From Halichondria panicea (taxonomy: Eukaryota; Porifera; Demospongiae; Suberitida; Halichondriidae), in the NCBI RefSeq assembly GCF_963675165.1, contig NC_087386.1, forward strand, positions 3,040,169 through 3,104,168: a DNA stretch of 64,000 nt, read 5' to 3'. Below the pieces are notes generated by a model. It was not told the origin of the DNA, made no database searches, and was given only the letters and a program-made list of their open reading frames with translations. A program made the position numbers and the translations under genes. Within the stretch, counting starts at the first letter, position 1. Each line of letters starts with the position of its first letter. This document shows positions 7,801 to 60,545 of this stretch, in pieces.

Positions 7801-9720
7801 GCTCTATTGTTTGTCAGTGTGCTGTTGAATATGGACAGACTGCCAGAGTCAACACCAATTGCTCCACCACTGTTAACTCTATTATTTGTTAGCGTATACT
7901 GTCAGAGATGGACACACTGCTTGAGTAAACATAAATCGCTCCATCACCATAGTTAGCACTCTTGTTCATCAGCTCACAGACAGATATGGACACATTACTG
8001 GTTGGGTAAACATTAACCGCTCCACCATCCATGTCAGCTTTGTTATTTGTCAGCTCACAGACAGAGATGGACACATTACTGCCTGAGTCAACAATAATCG
8101 CTCCACCATAATTAGCACTGTTGTTTGTCAGCTCACAGTTGGAGATGGACACACTGGTATTATGAATATAAATTACTCCACCAGCATTTTCACCTGTGTT
8201 ATTTATCACCTCACAGTTGGAGATGGACAAATTGCCCGAGCCAATACTAATCGCTCCACCAGCAAGGTCAGCTTTGTTATTTGTCAGCTGACAGTTGGAG
8301 ATGGATCCATTGCCTAAATCAACAACAATCGCTCCTCCATAGTCAGCTCTGTTATTTGTAAGCATACTGTTGGAGATGGACACACTGCCTGAGCCAACAT
8401 AAATCGCTCTACCACTATGGTCAGCACTGTTGTTCATCAGCTCACAGAAGGAGATGGACACACTACTGGTTGAGTAAACATTAACCGCTCCACCATCCAT
8501 GTTAGCTTTGTTGTTTGTCAGCTCACAGACAGAGATGGACACATTACTACCTGAGTCAACATTAATCGCTCCACCATAATTAGCACTGTTATTTGTCAGC
8601 TCACAGTTGGAGATGGACACACTGGTATTATGAACATAAATTACTCCACCAAAATTTTCAGCTGTGTTGTTTATCAGCTCACAGTTGGAGATGGACAAAC
8701 TGCCCGAGCCAACAATAATTGCTCCACCTCCAACGTCAGCTTTGTTATTCGTCAGCTCACAGCTGGAGATAGACCCACTGCCTGAACTAACTCCACCATA
8801 GTCAGCTTTGTTATTTGTCAGCATACTGTTGGAGATAGACACACTGCCTCGGTCAACATAAATCGCTCCACCACTATGGTCAGCACGGTTGTTTGTCAGC
8901 TCACAGACAGTGATGGACACTTTACTGCCTGAGCCAACAATAATTGCTCCACCATCATAATCAGCTTTGTTGTTTGTGTGTTTGTGAAGGTACACCTAGT
9001 GATCACTACAAAACCAGATACCACTTCTACTGCTCCTCCGCTCACAGCACTGTTGTAGTTGAACTCCGTGTTGTTGATCAGTGCGTTATTTAATTCAATG
9101 TCAACTGCACCTCTGACATTTCTAGTGAACTCGCTATTTGTTATGTACACATCATCAGCCTTAATGTACAGTGCCTGACCAGTATTGTTCATGAATAGAG
9201 TGCTCTCAATTTTTACAGTTTGAGTATTAGAGATCTTAACTATGTAAATTTCCATATTTTTCAAAGAGTTTATAAAGTAACAGTCGTTGATATAGACAGT
9301 GCATGTGCGCACTGTCAATGATCAAACCTCTATTTGAAATTTCTAGTCCAACTTTTGCTCCAATGAAATCAAAGTGTTCAATACTCAATTTGGTAATACT
9401 AACAAAACTTATCTCACCATTTCCATAGAATCTAACTACAGCTGTACGTTTGTTTTGGCCGGTGATATGCACATGTGAGAAGTTACGAATCAATAACTGC
9501 TCAGTTAATACATACTCACCGGGTAGAAAGCTCAAGGTGAGATTGTCGCCACCAGATATCAAGTTTATTTGAACAAGCTGCTCGAGAGTAAAACAAGTTC
9601 CATTTCGATAGTCATGACACAAGTTGGTACAATGTGATAGTGCTCACTCCTGGTAACAGCAGCTAGGGACAGTAGCAGCACTAACCAACTGAGAATATTT
9701 CTAGACAACGTATCTGAGGT
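4878..9720 (-). pseudogene. Broken beta-helix ectodomain, multi-pass membrane protein
   Basis: Read on the minus strand: a hydrophobic signal-like segment (about 9640-9705, LVLLLSLAAV), then many short repeats of the type ISNCELTNNxANYGGAI (8995 to about 7000; Asn-ladder right-handed beta-helix, like polymorphic-membrane-protein repeats), a Cys-rich region with CAYNRSGVLCGKCEPGLSL (about 6370), and at least six hydrophobic helices from about 6310 to 5270, then an acidic tail ending at 4878. The frame changes at about 9620, 9310, 8985, 7890, 7570, 6990, 6860 and 5740, and an in-frame TAG sits at 5893-5895 in an otherwise continuous helix region. The 8985 lesion looks like an 8-bp insertion and the 7890 one a 2-bp insertion. 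No ATG is in frame before the signal segment. The neighbouring multi-exon genes are intact, so decay is likelier than poor sequence. No function can be assigned; the family is seen as large uncharacterised receptors. Confidence 0.82.
7889..8995 (-). repeat. 26-codon repeats nested in a 468-bp higher-order duplication
   Basis: This open stretch encodes about fourteen units of about 26 residues. The repeat order recurs with an offset of 468 bp (for example ACACTGGTAT at 8151 and 8619), equal to six units of 78 bp, so a six-coil block was duplicated in frame. It shows how the beta-helix lengthened before the gene broke. Confidence 0.8.
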
Positions 9721-29723: not shown

Positions 29724-49868
<20,145 letters not shown>

Positions 49869-50506: not shown

Positions 50507-50676
50507 CAACTGAGACGTGATCCACTGCAAAAATGAGGTAATCCTTCCTTAAATAATTAGGGCTGAGACATCAGAGCTCAGTATCCGGCCGCCGGTAAAC
50601 ACGCAACTGAGACGTGATCCACTACAAAAATGAGACAATCATTCTTTAAATAATTGGGGCTGAGACATCGGAGCTC
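50507..50676 (-). repeat. Tandem duplication of the TRAF-like gene 3' end, 97-bp offset
   Basis: 50604-50676 (coding) and 50507-50579 (after the stop) match over about 73 bp with few changes, sharing CAACTGAGACGTGATCCACT and AAATAATT. In the distal copy the codon matching Arg in ELRC reads TGA. The present stop lies at 50578-50580, at the junction. Confidence 0.8.
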
Positions 50677-52182
50677 AAAGAATGAAGGCCAACCGTATCC
50701 ACCGGTAAGACTGTTTGTGTGCCTTCTGTTACCACAATCACCACAAGTATCATCGTAGACAATCCCTGTAGTCTCATTTCTCCCAGCAACTTGATCAGTG
50801 ATAGTAACAGTGACTTCACCTCGAAACGGCCATACAAGACGCTCATCATATTTTCCTTTAATGATGTACACATACAGTGACATGTGAGTTCCATCAATGC
50901 CATGAGGTTTAGCACTAAGTAACATCTTGTAACCTTCATTGGAGTAAAAAGGAGCAGAGTTCCATGTGTTTTTCTTGGCTTTTATTTGCTTAAAATTTCG
51001 CATTTTCAGTTCCACTGGTGGTATAGTAGAAGTGACCATAGGAGGTAACACTGGTGCACAGGGGGTGATAGATGGTTGCTTTCTTGCACACACGTCACCA
51101 GACTGAGGGTCAGAAACAGAAGCAGATCCTGATTGAGCGAAAAGTGTTACAACCTGATGATTAAGCGCTCGTACTTGTAACTGTACATTTTTGTACATCC
51201 TACTTGTATCAGCAAGGCTTTGTTTGAGGGACGTGTTTTCTTTTTTCAGTGCCGTCATCTTATTTCCGAAATTTCTCTTTAGAGAATTGATTTCTTTCTT
51301 CAATGTATCTAAGTCTGACCGGAGCTGTTTCTCTAAATGTTTACTATCAACCACTTTGCTAGTGAGACATAGATTAAGAGTGTGATTCTCAATTCTCAAT
51401 TCTTTAACCTCTTGTACAATTTCTCTGTGCGATATTGCTAGCAAAGACATATGTTCAACAATGCTCTCTCTCAGATGAGCCGGCATTTCTTTACGTGGAA
51501 ACAGAACCTTACATCCAGCGTAATTAAAATTACATTCAATAGGAGCAAGGTCACACTCATTAGATACATGTTGCTCAAGGTAATTTCGTTGAGGATTTTC
51601 CCCACATTCAAATGGGCAGGGAAGGGGGAACTTTGGGCAGAGGGGCCAGTGGTTCTCGGTGATATCGTCGAGGACAGAGGATTGGCCGCAATACTGACAG
51701 GTGTAGGGTTTTTTCGGGCACAGATTAGTCTCATGATTTTCAATGTCCTTTCGAGGGAATGAACAGTTACAGAATTTACAAGAGATATAAATAACTCCAC
51801 AACCTTCTAATCGAGCATCATTCACTGGTAATTTATTTAAATGCTCTGACAATTTTCCCATTTCATCGGCCCACAAACATCCTTCATCTTTATGAGGACA
51901 GTGGATACGAAGACCATTGATTGTGCGTTTGAGCTGCTTGTTGGGAAATATGATACGAAAATGTTGGTTACAGAGAGGACAAGGTTTTCCACTACTTTTG
52001 ATGGTATCGATACACTCTTTACAGAAACAGTTCCCACACTCACAGTCCAAGAGACAGGGGTTAGTGAGGAGTTGAAGGCAAATAGAGCATTCCAACTGAA
52101 TCTCTTGAGGAGGCTGTTTTACAAAGGAAACCTCAAAACCATCCTGGTGAATGACAGGCTTGAGAGGCTGCAAATCTGCCAT
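50578..52182 (-). CDS. TRAF-like RING, TRAF-zinc-finger and MATH protein, 534 aa
   Basis: Single open frame. A RING finger lies at residues about 32-73 (CSICLQLLTNPCLLDC, CGNCFCKECI, CPLCNQHF), followed by TRAF-type zinc fingers to about 240 (CPHKDEGCLW, CPKKPYTCQYC, CPFECGENPQRN, CNFNYAGC). A coiled coil spans about 250-345, then a linker and a C-terminal MATH domain from about 385 (NEGYKMLLSAKPHGIDGTHM, YIIKGKYDERLVWPFRGEVT, CLIFVVDHVSV). TRAF proteins trimerise through coil and MATH, bind cytoplasmic tails of receptors and use the RING for ubiquitin ligation. That role is inferred, and the receptor is unknown. The absence of introns points to retrocopy origin or a sponge TRAF expansion. 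The last residues (ACLPAAGY) arise from the local duplication and replace the natural end. Confidence 0.9.
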   Translation of the reverse strand: MADLQPLKPVIHQDGFEVSFVKQPPQEIQLECSICLQLLTNPCLLDCECGNCFCKECIDTIKSSGKPCPLCNQHFRIIFPNKQLKRTINGLRIHCPHKDEGCLWADEMGKLSEHLNKLPVNDARLEGCGVIYISCKFCNCSFPRKDIENHETNLCPKKPYTCQYCGQSSVLDDITENHWPLCPKFPLPCPFECGENPQRNYLEQHVSNECDLAPIECNFNYAGCKVLFPRKEMPAHLRESIVEHMSLLAISHREIVQEVKELRIENHTLNLCLTSKVVDSKHLEKQLRSDLDTLKKEINSLKRNFGNKMTALKKENTSLKQSLADTSRMYKNVQLQVRALNHQVVTLFAQSGSASVSDPQSGDVCARKQPSITPCAPVLPPMVTSTIPPVELKMRNFKQIKAKKNTWNSAPFYSNEGYKMLLSAKPHGIDGTHMSLYVYIIKGKYDERLVWPFRGEVTVTITDQVAGRNETTGIVYDDTCGDCGNRRHTNSLTGGYGWPSFFELRCLSPNYLKNDCLIFVVDHVSVACLPAAGY

Positions 52183-53292
52183 AGTTCACTCTGGTTCACT
52201 TCAGGATAGATCTAATGAAGGGCGTGGCATTCAACAGGAAGGCTTATAGCACTGCACACATTGCATAAAAACATTTGCACTGTGAAAGTAGTACGTTGGC
52301 CGGGAGAAGCACCAAAAAGCGTGGAAACTAGAGCAGGAGTCGGAGAGCCAGGTCAATCTGTCACACAACGTCAATTGTGCACATTTCAAAATCTTTATCA
52401 GCTCATTTGCAATGCCAATTTGTCGTACTGCAACAGAGTTAGTCTCGATCTGTTGGGAGCACGTAGCTTGTCTGCTGTCTCAAATCAAAAAGATTTGCTT
52501 GTGGGTACTTATGTTATTAGATCATCAATCTGTGCCATACAGCTAGTAGATCTATAGACTCAGAGAGGTTGCGCAGTTCTGTGCAACTTCACACACCTGA
52601 ATATTTCAATCCATGTTCCAATACCACAGTGACACACACATTGCACAATACTTACAGGACAAAGTATAGCTGAAGGTTTTGTCCATTGTTCTCTAGTGCG
52701 AGGGTCTGTCTAACTGCATGCCCCTATGAGCTGCATGCATGCTAACGATGAGTGTTTTTACGGCATGGTAAGGTTAGAACCACTATTTATAATTGTGTAA
52801 TGGAATCAGCAGCATGTGCGAAAATGGGCTAGAAACAAATCCATCATGCAGAAGAAGCAGTGGGTTGACAAGAACCTATACCGCAGTGTTAATTGATGTA
52901 ATTACTGCGGCAGGAGAAACGAATTGTATAGGCGTATAGCTAATTATAAAATGGTGCTTAAATGCATGCGCAATAAAAATTATATTCACATTTTGTATAA
53001 CAGCGCTGTATAATTACACATAACAGTCTACGATATAGATATAACGGACCGAGGCGAAAATCTGTAGAGTCTCACGAATATAGCTGAATCACTACAATAT
53101 AACTAGTGTTCAAGCTGGCGCTGTGCTAATGCCTCTCGCCATGATTTGCTTTCGCTCAAAAGTATAGAAGAGAAAGTATAGAAGAGGAAAAAGTGTATAA
53201 AATAATCTGTCTAAAACTGACTTGCAGTTGTATAATTATGGTATCATTGTTGTGTTTTGTGGCTGCTTATACCAGGACCTCAAGGATCTAGG
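52183..53292. other. Upstream flank of the TRAF-like gene, no further gene
   Basis: The first 100 bp or so should hold the TRAF promoter; no clear TATA box is seen. Near 53240-53292, GTGTTTTGTGGCTGCTTATA and ACCAGGACCTCAAGG resemble GCCTCGAGGC-family sequence at about 54650, so the following element may have landed in a copy of that family. Confidence 0.5.
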
Positions 53293-54395
53293 TAGCCTCG
53301 ATCCCAGGCCGAGTTTTCGCTTTTATAACGGTTAGGCGAACAACTGGGCCTGGTACTAGTTGTCTGCGCATGTGTCAAATTTTCATTGTATATTTGTGGT
53401 CGGCAAAAATATTTAATAAATCAATAATAGAAATTTGTACACAGAAAATGCACAGAGTGAGTACACAAAAGATGCACATAGGGAGCTGCTTCACAAAGGC
53501 CTGGGGAGTTGCCAGTTGTGCTGCAGCACAATTACAGTGACCCAGGGCAACTTCAGGATAATTGAATGCCTTCAAATTACGTTTCAAAAAGATTTAGCAG
53601 GCTGCTGGACTTCTCTGATTCTAGGCCCCAACTCGTAACTCATTGCTTGAGAAAACGTAGATTCTCTTGATGTCTCTGAGCTACCCAGCAACGCTCGAAT
53701 GAGCAGGTCATACTCCAGTCCTGTGTCTGTGAGTATAGGACAATATTAAAAGAAACCAAAGACGGTTAAACCCTTACCTCAAACTGTCCAGTCTCGTCCG
53801 TTAGTATAGCCAAGAGGAGCACTGTTGGGATAGCTGGATATTAGCCATTGCTCCTGTACAGAGAAGTAGATATTTTAAATACGTGTAGATCTATATATAC
53901 ATATTAAATTTCTCGGTTTTATAGTGTCATTGTCGACGAGCTGATGATGGCAGCACCAAGTTCTCTAGCTCACACTCTTCACTTGATCCACCATATTAAT
54001 TAATGATGAAACTATAGTCTACCTACATTCTTGCCAAACATGAACAAGACTTGACATGATAGCATAGCCGGCCATAGGGCCCACACAAAAATATCTGACC
54101 TTAACAAGCTTGACAAAGCTTTATACCTCTTCACTTGTTGTTCAGTCTTCAGAATAAGCTTCAGAGAAGAGAGAAGCTTCAGCTAAGAGCCATTCCAATC
54201 GATTCCAATAATGATAAAACGGGAACTGACTTCTAGTACACGATAGTACACGAATATAAATGTCACGAAAGTGAACGAGAATATCCATTCGTCAGAATCT
54301 GACGAACGACTGACGCATGCGCAGACAACTAGTACCAGGCCCAGTTGTTCGCCTAACCGTTATAAAAGCGAAAACTCGGCCTGGGATCGAGGCTA
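53293..54395. mobile_element. Non-autonomous element with 85-bp TIRs and perfect 9-bp target duplication
   Basis: Left TIR 53293-53377 and right TIR 54311-54395 are reverse complements with about one difference. Both begin TAGCCTCGATCCCAGGCCGA. The flanks GGATCTAGG (53284-53292) and GGATCTAGG (54396-54404) are identical 9-bp direct repeats. The 930-bp core has no transposase frame. Long TIRs with 9-bp duplication suggest a Mutator-like (or Merlin-like) enzyme. This is the best-preserved member of the TAGYCTCGA family, which also includes 3683-3791, 10354-10598, 15395-15480 and 17519-17573. Confidence 0.9.
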
Positions 54396-54589
54396 GGATC
54401 TAGGAAGCAACAAAGAAGAAGATTTTGTTTTCAATTAATTATAAGCGGAAGTGCATAATTATTTCATAAAGTTAGCTTATCTATATAAAGTCACTGAGAA
54501 GAAAAGACTTATTACATGCATCTATTGTTGTATTATGTGGCTTTAATACCAGGACCTCAAGAAAGAAGAAAATTGGATCTGTAGTTCAT

Positions 54590-55168
54590 GCAGTGTATAA
54601 TTATAATATTTAAGAAGAAAAGACTTGTGTACATGCATATTGTTATCTATAGTAGTGTTTTGTGGCTTACCAGGCCCTCAAGAAAAATATGATTCTGCCA
54701 GGAGGATCTGGATCTGGGGAATGAGCGCGCATGCGCATTACATCCATAGGAATAATTAAAGGGTGTGTCCAAAGAGATCAATTTCACAAATGGCTACTGC
54801 TAGCTAGCTGTTTTAACAGGTATTTTCTGAGTCTTGTAGCTAACAAAAAGCTAGCGCTTTAGTGCAAGGCTAACTCATATGTTGAATAGAAAGTTTGTGC
54901 GGACAGATGATGCTATGAAAGATTCTGAAGAGACTGCAACAGCCTTCAATGTGAGTCAAACTAGCCATAACTCGAGAAAGAAGCTTTAGTTTGCTAATCC
55001 ACGAATCAAAATCCAAGAGAACGTGGCTAGAAGCCTATAGAAGCTGTTAGTTTTCGTCGCATTGCAACCGTTGAGCAGTTACAGCTGGAACAGACACACA
55101 GACACACACACACACACACACAGTCAGCTTTACCGTATCCCTCATGCGGCTACGCCTCGAGGCATAAT
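54590..55168 (-). repeat. GCCTCGAGGC-family element, near-full copy
   Basis: Collinear with 32285-32860: GTGGCTTACCAGGCCCTC, GCGCATGCGCATTACATCC, CACAAATGGCTACT, GTTAGTTTTCGTCGCATTGC, an (AC)n tract and CAGTCAGCTTTACCGTATCC. It ends GCCTCGAGGCATAATTATA immediately before the minisatellite. Confidence 0.75.
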
Positions 55169-58008
55169 TATAGTAGTTCCATAGTTCCATGGTTCCACAG
55201 TTTCACAGTTCCGTGGTTCTTCCACAGTTCCATGGTTCCACGGTTCCACAGTTCTATGGTTCCACAGTTCCACGATTCGGTTCCACAGTTCCATGGTTCC
55301 ATGGTTCCACAGTTCCATAGTTCCATGGTTCCAAGCGTTCCAAGTGTTCCATGGTTCCATAGTTCCATCGTTCCATGGTTCCATAGTTCCAAGGTTCCAT
55401 AGTTCCAAGGTTCCATAGTTCCATGCTTCCATAGTTCCATGCTTCCATGGTTCCATAGTTCCATGGTTCCAAGCGTTCCATGCATGGTTCCATAGTTCCA
55501 AGCGTTCCATGGTTCCACAGTTCCATGGTTCCATGCTTCCATGGTTCCACAGTTCCATGGTTCCAAGCGTTCCATGCATGGTTCCAAGCGTTCCATGCAT
55601 GGTTCCATGGTTCCATAGTTCCATGGTTCCACAATTCCATGGTTCCAAGCGTTCCATGGTTCCACAGTTCCATAGTTCCATGGTTCCAAGCGTTCTAGTT
55701 CCAAGCGTTCCATGGTTCCATGGTTCCATAGTTCCAAGCGTTCCATGGTTCTATAGTTCCATAGTTCCATGGTTCCAAGCGTTCTAGTTCCAAGCGTTCC
55801 ATGGTTCCACAATTCCATGGTTCCAAGCGTTCCATGGTTCCACAGTTCCATAGTTCCATGGTTCCAAGCGTTCTAGTTCCAAGCGTTCCATAGTTCCAAG
55901 TGTTCCATGGTTCTATAGTTCCAAGCGTTCCATAGTTCCAAGCGTTCCATGGTTCCATCATTCCAAGCGTTCCATGGTTCCATAGTTCCAAGCGTTCCAT
56001 GGTTCCATAGTTCCAAGTGTTCCATGGTTCCATAGTTCCAAGTGTTCCATAGTTCCAAGCGTTCCATAGTTCCAAGCGTTCCATGGTTCCATAGTTCCAA
56101 GTGTTCCATGGTTCCACAGTTCCATGGTTCCATAGTTCCAAGTGTTCCATGGTTCCACAGTTCCATGGTTCCATAGTTCCAAGCGTTCCATGGTTCTACA
56201 GTAGTTCCATGGTTCCATGGTTCCACAGTTCCATGGTTCCATAGTTCCAAGCGTTCCATGGTTCCATCATTCCAAGCGTTCCATAGTTCCAAGCATTCTA
56301 TGGTTCCATGGTTCCAAGCGTTCCATGGTTCCATAGTTTCAAGCGTTCCATGGTTCCATGGTTCCATAGTTCCATGGTTCCATAGTTCCAAGCGTTCCAT
56401 TGTTCCATAGTTCCAAGCGTTCCATGGTTCCACAGTTCCATGGTTCCATAGTTCCAAGCGTTCCATGGTTCCACAGTTCCATGGTTCCATAGTTCCAAGC
56501 GTTCCATGGTTCCATATTTCCACAGTTCCATGGTTCCAAGCGTTCCATGGTTCCATCATTCCATGTTCCAAGCGTTCCATGGTTCCATGTCTCCAAGCGT
56601 TCCATTGTTCCATTGTTCCATGGTTCCAAGCGTTCCATGGTTCCATTGTTCCATGCGTTCCATGGTTCCTACTGTTCTAAGCGTTCCATAGTTTCATTGT
56701 TCCATTGTTCCATGGTTCTAAGCGTTCCATGGTTCCAGCGTTCCATGGTTCCTACTGTTCCATGGTTCGTACTGTTTCATGGTTCCAGTGTTCCATGGTT
56801 CCTGCTGTTCCATGGTTCCAGTGTTCCATTGTTCCATAGTTCAAAGCATTCCATTGTTCCTGATTGTTGAACACTTTTAAAGGAACAGTGGGAACCATGG
56901 AACGCTGGGAAAGAGGAACAGTATAGAAACCATGCACGGAACAGTAGGAACCATGGAACCATGGAAGAAAAGTGAAAAGTTGGACCCATAGAACAGTAGG
57001 AACCATGGAACACTTAGAACCATGGAATGCTTGGAACCATGGAACCATGAAACGCTTGGAACCATGGAACGCTTGGAACTATGGAACCATGGAATGCTTG
57101 GAACGCTTGGAACCATGAAACGCTTGGAACCATGGAACTATGGAACGCTTGGAACTATGGAACCATGGAACGCTTGTAACCATGAAACGCTTGGAACCAT
57201 GGAACTATGGAACCATGGAACGCTTGGAACTATGGAACGCTTGGAACCATGAACCATGGAACCGTGGAACTATGGAACCATGGAACTATGAAACCATGGA
57301 ACTATGAAACACTTGGAACTATGGAACCATGGAACGCTTAGAACCATGGAACTATGGAACCAGGGAACGCTTGGAACTATGGGGAACAATGGAATGCTTG
57401 GAACCATGGAACTATGGAACCATGGAACCATGGAACCATGGAACGCTTGGAACTATGGAACCATGGAACTATGGAACGCTTGGAACACTTGGAACTATGG
57501 AACCATGGAACGCTTGGAACTGTATGGAACCATGGAACTATGGAACCATGGAGCTATGGAACCATGAAACCATGGAACGCTTGGAACGCTTGGAACCATG
57601 GAACTATGGAATGCTTGGAACTATGGAACCATGGAACGCTTGGAACTATGGAACCATGGAACGCTTGGAACCATGGAGCTATGGAACTATGAAACCATGG
57701 AACGCTTGGAACGCTTGGAACCATGGAACTATGGAACCGTGGAACCATGGAATGCTTGGAACCATGGAACTGTGGAGCCATTGAACCATGGAACTTTGGA
57801 ACCATGGAACTATGGAACTGTGGAACCATGGAACTGTGGAACCATGGGACTGTGGAACCTTGGAACTGTGGAACCATGGAACTGTGGAACCATGAAACTA
57901 TGGAAACATGGAACCATGGAACTGTGGAACCATGGAACCGTGGAACTGTGGAACCATGGAACTGTGGAACCATGGAACTATGGAACTGTGGAACCATGAA
58001 ACTGTAGG
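55169..58008. repeat. 2.8-kb minisatellite that reverses strand at its centre
   Basis: From 55170 to about 56868 the sequence is built from short units GTTCCATG, GTTCCATA, GTTCCACA and GTTCCAAGC. From about 56880 to 58003 the same units run as reverse complement (GGAACCATG, GGAACTATG, GGAACGCTT). The switch is at about 56862-56884, in TGTTCCTGATTGTTGAACAC. Left arm about 1.7 kb, right arm about 1.1 kb. Units are roughly 8-9 bp in mixed order. Six-frame reading stays open on both strands only because the units lack stop codons. Confidence 0.95.
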
Positions 58009-58011
58009 AAT

Positions 58012-58600
58012 GAAAACACCGCAGGTGCTGATGCCTCGGTGGAGATGCCAAAGCTACATAACATAAAGCTACTTTTTAGCATGCAAACTCAAAGAGTGGG
58101 TAATGATCGACCATGAATGTTGTTAAAAACGATCGATGCCAAAAGTTCAAGTCTAAAATTAATGGCTGCCGTCTGCAGAGCCTTGCAGCTCTCTTCTCAC
58201 TCGTGCAGCTACCAATAGCTAGCGTTCTAGTGCAGAGCTAACTACTAAGTAGAGTAGCAACATTCGGTAAACAAGTTTGGCTACGTGCTCTTCTGAAAAG
58301 GCTGCAATGGCATTCCAAGTAAGCAAAACTAGGCATAACTCGAGAACGAAGCATTATTTTGCAAATCCACAATAAAAATCCAAGTAAACATGACTAGAAG
58401 CCTATAGAAACTCTTACTTGCACTTGATTCATCCTTGTCATTGAGCAGCTGTAGCAGTCTACACACACAGTTGGATAGCCACCGTACCTACTTGTACGTG
58501 TTTTAGTTAAATATGCATTTCGCATTACATCATAATATTGAACAGGAAGAAATTTGTTAGAAAGTTCTAGTTTCTGTACCTCGCTTGCGCATGTAGGAGA
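58012..58600 (-). repeat. ATGCCTCGG dispersed element, reverse copy
   Basis: Reads in reverse relative to 38653-39215: it starts ACCGCAGGTGCTGATGCCTC, includes GGTAATGATCGACCATGA and ends near CTCGCTTGCGCATG. Its end abuts the minisatellite. Confidence 0.75.
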
Positions 58601-58959: not shown

Positions 58960-60545
58960 CCAATTTATTGTCCAGAGGTTATTTGGCTCTATACTGAAAC
59001 ACGCCGAGCCACTTTTCTGACTTTCTGAGAGCCATGATTATAGAACGGGAACTGGAATAATTATGTTCAATCCTGGTCTATATACAAGCAATTAAGTATA
59101 TCAGCCAATAAGTTATGTTGATATACTCAAGTTACTTTAATCAACTGGAACTTGCTGAGCAACTTTTCTGACTTTCCGAGAACAGTGGTTCGTTAACGAG
59201 AACCCTGAAAAATAATGTATTCAGTGCTGGTCTATAGACATGCATACAGATATCAGCTAGTATATGTTGATATATACTCTTCTGAGGTTATTTGAATCGA
59301 CTGGAACTTGCTGAGCAACTTTTCTGACTTTCCGAGAGCAGTGGTTCGTTAACGGGAACCCTGAAAAATAATATATTCAGTGCTGGTCTAGACATGCATG
59401 CAGATATCAGCCAGTACGTTGATATATATACTCAAGTTTACAATTCTGGGGTTACTTTAAGCGACTGGAACTTGCTAAGCAACTTTTCTGACTTTCCGAG
59501 AGCAGTGGTTCGTTAACGGGAATCCAGAAAAATAATCGACTGGAACTTGCAAAGCAACTTTTCTGACTTTCCGAGAGCAGTGGTTCGTTAACGGGAATCC
59601 AGAAAAATAACATATTCAGTGCTGGTCTAGACATGCATGCAGATATCAGCCAGTATGTTGATATAATTATACTCAAGTTTACAATTCTGAGGTTACTTTA
59701 ATCGACTGGAACTTGCTAAGCAACTTTTCTGACTTTCCGAGAGCAGTGGTTCGTTAACGAGAATCCAGAAAAATAACATATTCAGTGCTGGTCTATAGAC
59801 ATGCATGCAGATATATCAGCCAGTATGGTGATATATACTCAAGTTTACAATTCTGAGGTTACTTTAATCGACTGGAACTTGCTAAGCAACTTTTCTGACT
59901 TTCCGAGAGCAGTGGTTCATTAACGGGAATCCAGAAAAATAACATATTCAGTGCTGATCTATAGACATGCATGCAGATATCAGCCAGTATGTTGATATAT
60001 ACTCAAGTTTACAATTCTGAGGTTACTTTAATCGACTGGAACTTGCTAAGCAACTTTTCTGACTCTCCGAGAGCAGTGGTTCGTTAACGGGAATCCAGAA
60101 AAATAACATATTCAGTGCTTGTCTAGACATATGCAGATATATCAGCCAGTATGTTGATATATACTCAAGTTTACAATTCTGAGGTTACTTTAATCGACTG
60201 GAACTTGCTAAGCAACTTTTCTGACTTTCCGAGAGCTGTGCTTCGTAAGCGGAAACCCAGAAAATATATTTAGTGCTGGTCTTAGACAAGCAGGTAGCAG
60301 CCAATACGTTGATACACTCTTCTGAGGTTACTTTTAATCGACTGGGAACTTGCTGAGCAACTTTTCTGACTTTCCGAGAGCAGTGATTTGTAAACGGAAA
60401 CCCAGAAAATATATTCAGTGCTGGTCTTATAGACAAGCAGGTATCAGCCAATAATTATGTTGATAATACCTAAGTTTACAATTCTGAGGCTATACTTTAA
60501 TCGACTGCATGGAACTTCCTGGAGCAACTTTTCAGACTTTCCATG
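58960..60545. repeat. Satellite array, units of about 140-170 bp
   Basis: About ten to eleven copies of a unit holding TCGACTGGAACTTGCTAAGC, AACTTTTCTGACTTTCCGAG, AGCAGTGGTTCGTTAACGGG and a CAGTGCTGGTCTA region. Copies start near 59150, 59292, 59462, 59538, 59702, 59868, 60030, 60193, 60340 and 60495. One unit (about 59462-59537) is cut to about 76 bp, keeping only the conserved core. Divergence rises toward both edges. Confidence 0.9.

Follow-up and report, generated by a model that had tools for sequence, protein, structure and literature searches.

The minisatellite that changes strand at its centre in this part of the Halichondria panicea genome very probably belongs to a foldback-type family of DNA transposons, as a non-autonomous copy that has suffered damage. 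When intact, such a copy comprises an end sequence (TIR) of about 70 bp, an arm of GTTCC units, a short asymmetric centre, an inverted arm and an inverted TIR, with an 8-bp duplication outside. We consider the flip to have been inherited by transposition, because the centre is common to six loci and other copies have target duplications. The window, by which we mean the whole stretch of 64,000 nucleotides analysed, corresponds to G000:C10:3040169-3104168; searches of the sponge's own genome covered 131 Mb in 39 contigs, and the features described below are collected in the table.

The strand flip reported in the initial annotation is real: an array of GTTCC units passes through a short centre into its complement, and the turning point lies where it had been placed, close to position 56870. 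Tandem Repeats Finder describes the left array as period 8, GTTCCATG (55176-56842, 204.5 copies), and the right array as GGAACCAT (56999-58002, 121.6 copies); complement-strand units are present already from 56882, upstream of the start reported by the program. Compared with itself, the array yields 1800 inverted pairs in many registers, in agreement with the earlier description of two arms that can pair along almost any register. The right arm had also been called the exact complement of the left, which holds for the unit type and not base by base: among the 25 longest of the 1800 inverted pairs, the top one measures 238 nt at 71% and another 131 nt at 89%. A match of the array to a Nitrosomonas plasmid in the plasmid collection (78%, E 1e-7) was judged to be chance low complexity.

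Table. Features of the window copy, related loci, target duplications and paired-gene regions
Feature	Location	Strand	Details
Left outer TIR remnant	53068..53102	+	Lacks the outermost 17 bp and 8 bp of its interior
Foreign high-copy interspersed element	53103..55164	+	About 0.95 kb; inside left TIR
Nested insertion in the 53103-55164 element	53297..54394		1.1 kb
Inner left TIR (TAATTATAGTAGTTCC)	55165..55180	+	Continues the remnant ending at 53102
Left arm, GTTCC-unit minisatellite	55176..56860	+	About 185 units of 8-9 bp
Asymmetric centre TGATTGTTGAACACTTTTAAA	56861..56881	+	Meeting point of the arms; holds the word TTGTTGAACA, found in 6 loci
Right arm, left-arm units inverted	56882..58010	-	About 113 units
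Second foreign high-copy element (AATGAAAGCACCGCAGG...)	58009..58470	+	Truncated; begins at the expected right outer end
Junction-spanning loci	C1:12105772, C5:6284996, C4:4148141, C17:1657604, C1:7640328		84-86%
Two-arm loci (nine)	The five junction loci, C3:4760k, C13:2063k, C13:2046k, C5:6443k		C13:2046k is a duplicate
Target duplication GAAAAACT	C17:1654.9-1660.2k		8/8
Target duplication GGAAATTT	C1:4676.6-4690.6k		8/8
Target duplication AGGATCTC	C1:12104k		8/8, allowing a shortened left end with four end bases missing
Target duplications	C5:6281k, C5:6442k, C13:2062k, C4:5830k (short)		7/8 each
No clear target duplication	C14:2619k (short)		5/8
No clear target duplication	C4:4147k		1/8; end bases lost
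Paired-gene regions	C1:4.68M, C17:4.10-4.11M, C10:4.08M, C1:5.24M		P-loop homologue within 10 kb of an ORF match

The same arrangement recurs elsewhere in the genome. With the junction (56700-57050) as query, 23 candidates were scored in the own genome and five other loci were found to span the junction at 84-86%; for C3:4760k and C13:2063k the match is 73%, a value that does not stand out from the 72% obtained when the array is compared with its own reverse. The word of the centre occurs in one orientation at four of its loci and in the other at two. Among the other loci examined it is absent from C13, C3, C5:6443k, C9 and a 14-kb copy, where the centre may have been lost or may never have been present. 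Strand tracks place a GTTCC arm before a GGAAC arm in the window and at the nine other loci of the table, and opposite-strand arms also lie at both ends of the 14-kb copy (C1:4676-4690k). The genome search for like arrays that the initial annotation had proposed thereby recovered the centre in five other loci and the inverted arm pair in ten, or nine if the duplicated locus is counted once.

Arms, ends included, range from 120 bp to about 3.7 kb, are unequal within a copy and vary between copies. The left arm of C5:6443k is only about 120 bp long, and at C9:3815k a lone left arm gives way to unrelated sequence. Because the window's centre or array served to find the loci, copies with one arm may be under-represented. 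The copies at C17 and C5:6281k lie on separate contigs and face opposite ways; their alignment extends over 3.9 kb at 86%. The C13 insertion is present twice, about 17 kb apart (C13:2062-2065k and C13:2045-2048k), with 370 of 370 bases of the left flank identical; the duplicate at C13:2045-2048k exceeds the other in length, and its arms are separated by a gap of 200 N.

Copies end in about 70 bp of unique TIR (GGTTGGTACTTGATATAAGACTCACGAATATAGCTGAATCAGCAATAAACTACAATATAATTATAGTAG), which starts GGTTGGTACTTGATATAAGACTCACG and is inverted at the opposite end; used as a query, the TIR gave 25 matches at 16 loci of the own genome. Such matching ends (GGTTGGTACTTGATATAAG...) are present in the better-preserved copies and lost from the window copy. 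A target duplication of 8 bp flanks seven of the nine copies with both ends readable, with eight of eight bases agreeing in three and seven of eight in four; the C13 element was counted once in this set, and the diverged right end of C4:5830k needed a separate anchor word. Read by fixed offset, agreement is 8/8 in two and 7/8 in four of the nine elements, the seventh reaching 8/8 after end correction. None of the 72 cross-pairs in the flank control, which included one misread flank (C1:12104k), reaches 7/8.

The target duplication of the window copy itself is unreadable because both of its outer ends are damaged. An ungapped TIR pattern has no match in the window, since 8 bp are missing inside the remnant; a gapped search found the left remnant as a 46-column match to TIR positions 18-63 (78%, one 8-base gap, E 1.9e-6) and, within the window, no right TIR downstream of the array. 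Beyond the foreign element, positions 55164-55180 give a 17-base exact TIR match, and the identical sequence precedes the array in other copies. Overlapped at TAA, the two sides of the split left TIR read CTACAATATAATTATAGTAG, matching uninterrupted copies; many of 26 other copies of the intruding element do not show the TAA, which makes it a doubtful target duplication of that element. The element, whose boundaries rest on 29 copies and on 26 of the 30 loci inspected, begins with AACTAGTG or CTAGTG, ends in CGAGGCA-TAA and is found at 96-99% in at least 39 other places of the genome, among 40 scored. Compared with other copies of the element, its nested insertion has about 14 bp common to both borders. 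On the opposite side, the right arm ends AAACTGTAGGAA where other copies go on CTACTATAATTATA, and the last AA may already belong to the second foreign element, which recurs at 89-94% in at least 39 other places and at 81% in one more.

In the initial annotation, the array had been taken to be bounded by a GCCTCGAGGC element on the left and a ATGCCTCGG element on the right. Both are real, high-copy elements, and neither belongs to the array: the GCCTCGAGGC element sits within the array element's own left end, between 53068-53102 and 55165-55180, and the ATGCCTCGG element starts at 58009, at the point of truncation of the right end. The idea of a single composite unit survives in part, in that the inverted array is one transposable unit, although not one delimited by these two elements.

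Several other features lie in the same window. The open-frame start of a TRAF-like gene (zf-TRAF, MATH and a sub-threshold RING; 50578-52182, minus strand) is about 0.9 kb from the left remnant, and a tandem array of units of about 156-166 bp (also with 75-bp and 407-bp periods) occupies 59131-60542, to the right of the foldback element. Further to the left are an uninterrupted (TG)n of 371 bp with a 100% match (39931-40301) and, on the minus strand, a 156/78-bp tandem repeat (7889-8995) in an open frame that matches Chlamydia PMP repeats and a right-handed beta helix.

Across the copies, unit types tend to follow one outside-to-inside order in both arms. ACAG units lie outward (mean position below 0.5) in 15 of the 16 arms that contain three or more, in eight of the 16 at an uncorrected p < 0.05. 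TACTG units are innermost in six of the seven arms that hold three or more; the left arm of the 14-kb copy departs from this. AAGCG units show an inward shift at p < 0.05 in no more than 7 of 15 arms, and two arms lean slightly the other way. Within the window the ACAG trend has p = 0.075 in the left arm and 0.0002 in the right, and AAGCG shows no trend. In this test the outer parts were missing for the right arm of C17 and both arms of C5:6281k, and the left arm of C5:6443k (5 units) was excluded. Left-right token alignments scored on average 1.40 times their shuffles (8 pairs) versus 1.23 and 1.21 between loci (64 each); these values do not clearly show homogenisation of the arms within a locus, or gene conversion from one arm to the other. 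In the 14-kb copy, ACAG and AAGCG units are missing from the left arm, so the arms of this copy may not be a recent parent of those in the short copies.

These observations bear on an unlikely alternative, in which a host satellite was inserted or expanded repeatedly and separately within an ordinary short inverted-repeat element (MITE). Array-less short copies with the family ends (C4:5830k, 105 bp; C14:2619k, 137 bp) speak for it, and Tetris and DAIBAM, described in Drosophila as a pair of array and MITE type, offer a precedent (PMC4079207). Separate expansions, however, would give neither a centre common to six loci nor a tendency in the order of unit types.

The central 951 nt of the array fold at -369 kcal/mol, compared with -127 (sd 6) for 20 dinucleotide shuffles (z = -40). 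A centre that folds 40 standard deviations better than shuffles would suit a hairpin-RNA locus, transcribed to long double-stranded RNA that silences the family and kept for small-RNA production, a reading that is compatible with a transposon copy. We regard it as improbable nonetheless, since the longest ungapped pairings are only 71-89% complementary, the window copy is interrupted at both ends, and no trait observed distinguishes it from the other copies.

Even less credible is a head-to-head fusion by breakage at this site, which the initial annotation had offered as its second explanation. Here a one-direction minisatellite would have broken and been copied back, by foldback priming or break-induced replication, which leaves unequal inverted arms with a tiny spacer. 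As an event at the window locus it is contradicted by the asymmetric centre at six loci in two orientations and by the duplications around other copies; with the same centre at five further loci and a duplication of their own around seven of nine copies, no such event is needed, and fusion may rather be how the founder of the family arose. The least plausible reading, an artefact in which assembly wrongly joined a long array of one orientation head to head, can appeal to the difficulty of assembling palindromes and to the N gap between the arms of the C13 duplicate, but the window copy is free of N, its junction is common to the five other loci, and artefacts would not diverge yet retain their centre and ends.

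The family of foldback-type copies also includes the gene-bearing 14-kb member (C1:4676585-4690565). Both TIRs are present and the flanking 8-bp duplication is perfect; the left arm is of GTTCC type and the right arm of GGAAC type, and the middle of about 8.4 kb contains open frames. On its minus strand lies an open frame of 903 aa, a candidate transposase ORF, which would reach about 930 aa without stops when joined to a small first exon through a GT-AG intron that fits in phase. Pfam returned sub-threshold OTU-like matches (C65 E 0.002, OTU 0.11), one chance-level match and no transposase match for this ORF; a relative of the ORF has a sub-threshold match to an MSL2-type CXC (E 3.6e-5), and a 38% relative one to an ISL3 helix-turn-helix (E 0.0035). 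In NCBIfam, IS256 ranks top for the ORF, with E 0.01 and 14.9 bits against a cut-off of 150, followed by an unrelated oxidoreductase model at 0.015, and it is also top for the 38% relative (E 0.0063). Between these two proteins D, D, E and a D-x-x-H are conserved. Structure prediction of the first part of the ORF (518 aa, three sequences) gave a mean pLDDT of 36; against solved structures, comparison by sequence gave only a weak OTU match (E 0.29) and the profile gave no match. Homologues of the ORF account for 28 matches in the own genome, and no relatives were found in viral contigs or phage records. On these sequence comparisons, the assignment of the ORF as a transposase is weak.

The plus strand of the 14-kb copy carries exon-like frames with the P-loop word GPSETGKST, in a protein to which Pfam gives no family name. 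The own genome holds 15 places with homologues of the P-loop part, five of which fall in the four regions where such a homologue lies close to an ORF match. Six places with one identical score (C8:3140609, C9:2871005, C2:976440, C2:7741296, C7:119489 and C7:2260271) have no listed ORF match beside them; therefore the P-loop gene also travels in something else, and the six equal-score copies suggest a separate, recently spread element that carries a P-loop-related gene. Two copies of GCTGATTCAGC lie between the two genes of the 14-kb copy (L081 4687, 4757), and the TIRs hold its reverse complement, GCTGAATCAGC; this sequence may be a binding site.

Taken together, it is possible, if somewhat doubtful, that a new lineage of animal transposons is represented here, with the 14-kb copy as its autonomous member. 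Judging from sequence, the candidate transposase of this copy would combine three parts, a diverged IS256/Mutator-like catalytic one, an OTU-like deubiquitinase and one of CXC type for DNA binding, and would travel with a P-loop ATPase gene. The arms would then form an ordered platform of putative transposase-binding sites, with different jobs for the outer, middle and inner unit types.

We read the array family as a new foldback family, set apart from the known ones by their descriptions. Its copies combine a TIR with inverted arms of tandem repeats, vary in arm length, are dispersed with duplicated targets, and enclose a middle domain that ranges from the centre of about 21 bp in the window to the 8.4 kb of the 14-kb copy. 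Among titles and abstract starts in the literature, taken as the best matches of longer lists, there was no description of this family and none of a foldback element whose transposase has OTU and CXC parts. Ginger1 is, to our knowledge, not foldback-shaped, and its target duplication is 4 bp. It provides a case of an already known OTU-bearing transposase, described as one in which an OTU-like protease part can follow the catalytic part; the Ginger1 catalytic domain is Gypsy-integrase-like, unlike the family here (PMC2836005).

Other parallels come from elements with repetitive ends. The animal foldbacks (Drosophila FB, those of sea urchin and Chironomus, and Tetris of D. virilis), compared here by description, also have long TIRs with a unique outer part, a tandem-repeat part and an inner domain, around a variable middle; Tetris is reported with target duplications of 8-10 bp, against 8 bp here, and with units of about 220 bp instead of 8-9 bp (PMC4079207). 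Similarly, Tm1 of root-knot nematodes, a Mutator/Foldback element with a Phantom-like transposase, is described with composite inverted repeats of variable length and, like the family here, with MITE-like, hairpin-motif and transposase-bearing copies together (PMC3169594). Its duplications are given as 9 bp and its transposase as FLYWCH-MULE (PMC3169594), whereas the present family has duplications of 8 bp, gives no Pfam match to FLYWCH or MULE, and shows OTU-like and Cys-cluster parts. Galileo, a foldback-like element of the P superfamily in Drosophila, likewise has long, internally repetitive inverted repeats, and its tandem repeats are reported to bind the THAP domain of its transposase (PMC3573991, PMC3688188). 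That transposase is of P type (PMC3573991, PMC3688188), whereas Pfam at E up to 1 found no THAP or P-type transposase match in the ORF or its relatives. According to the Galileo authors, tandem repeats as transposase-binding sites are untested for Foldback and Phantom (PMC3688188).

An affinity of the family to Mutator is possible, its 8-bp target duplication falling within the 8-10 bp named as a feature of MULEs (PMC5225508). We do not file the family as Mutator because the IS256 hint is weak, nor as Phantom, which has FLYWCH before MULE, because the FLYWCH finger was not found; Pfam at E up to 1 gave neither a FLYWCH nor a MULE match for the ORF and its relatives.

In the mechanism that we propose, the transposase of the 14-kb relative would bind the ends and cut and paste copies, and the arm units would serve as many extra transposase-binding sites, by analogy with Galileo. 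Arms would grow and shrink through slippage or unequal exchange, and the mirrored layout would be old, copied along with the element and not formed at the window site. Palindromes of this kind are likely sites of breakage and rearrangement. With this reading, a strand-flipping minisatellite becomes a mobile element with defined ends, and foldback transposition explains how mirrored minisatellites can come to lie scattered across a genome. Long-armed, short and gene-bearing copies coexist in one family, and the family makes it testable whether arm repeats are transposase-binding sites.
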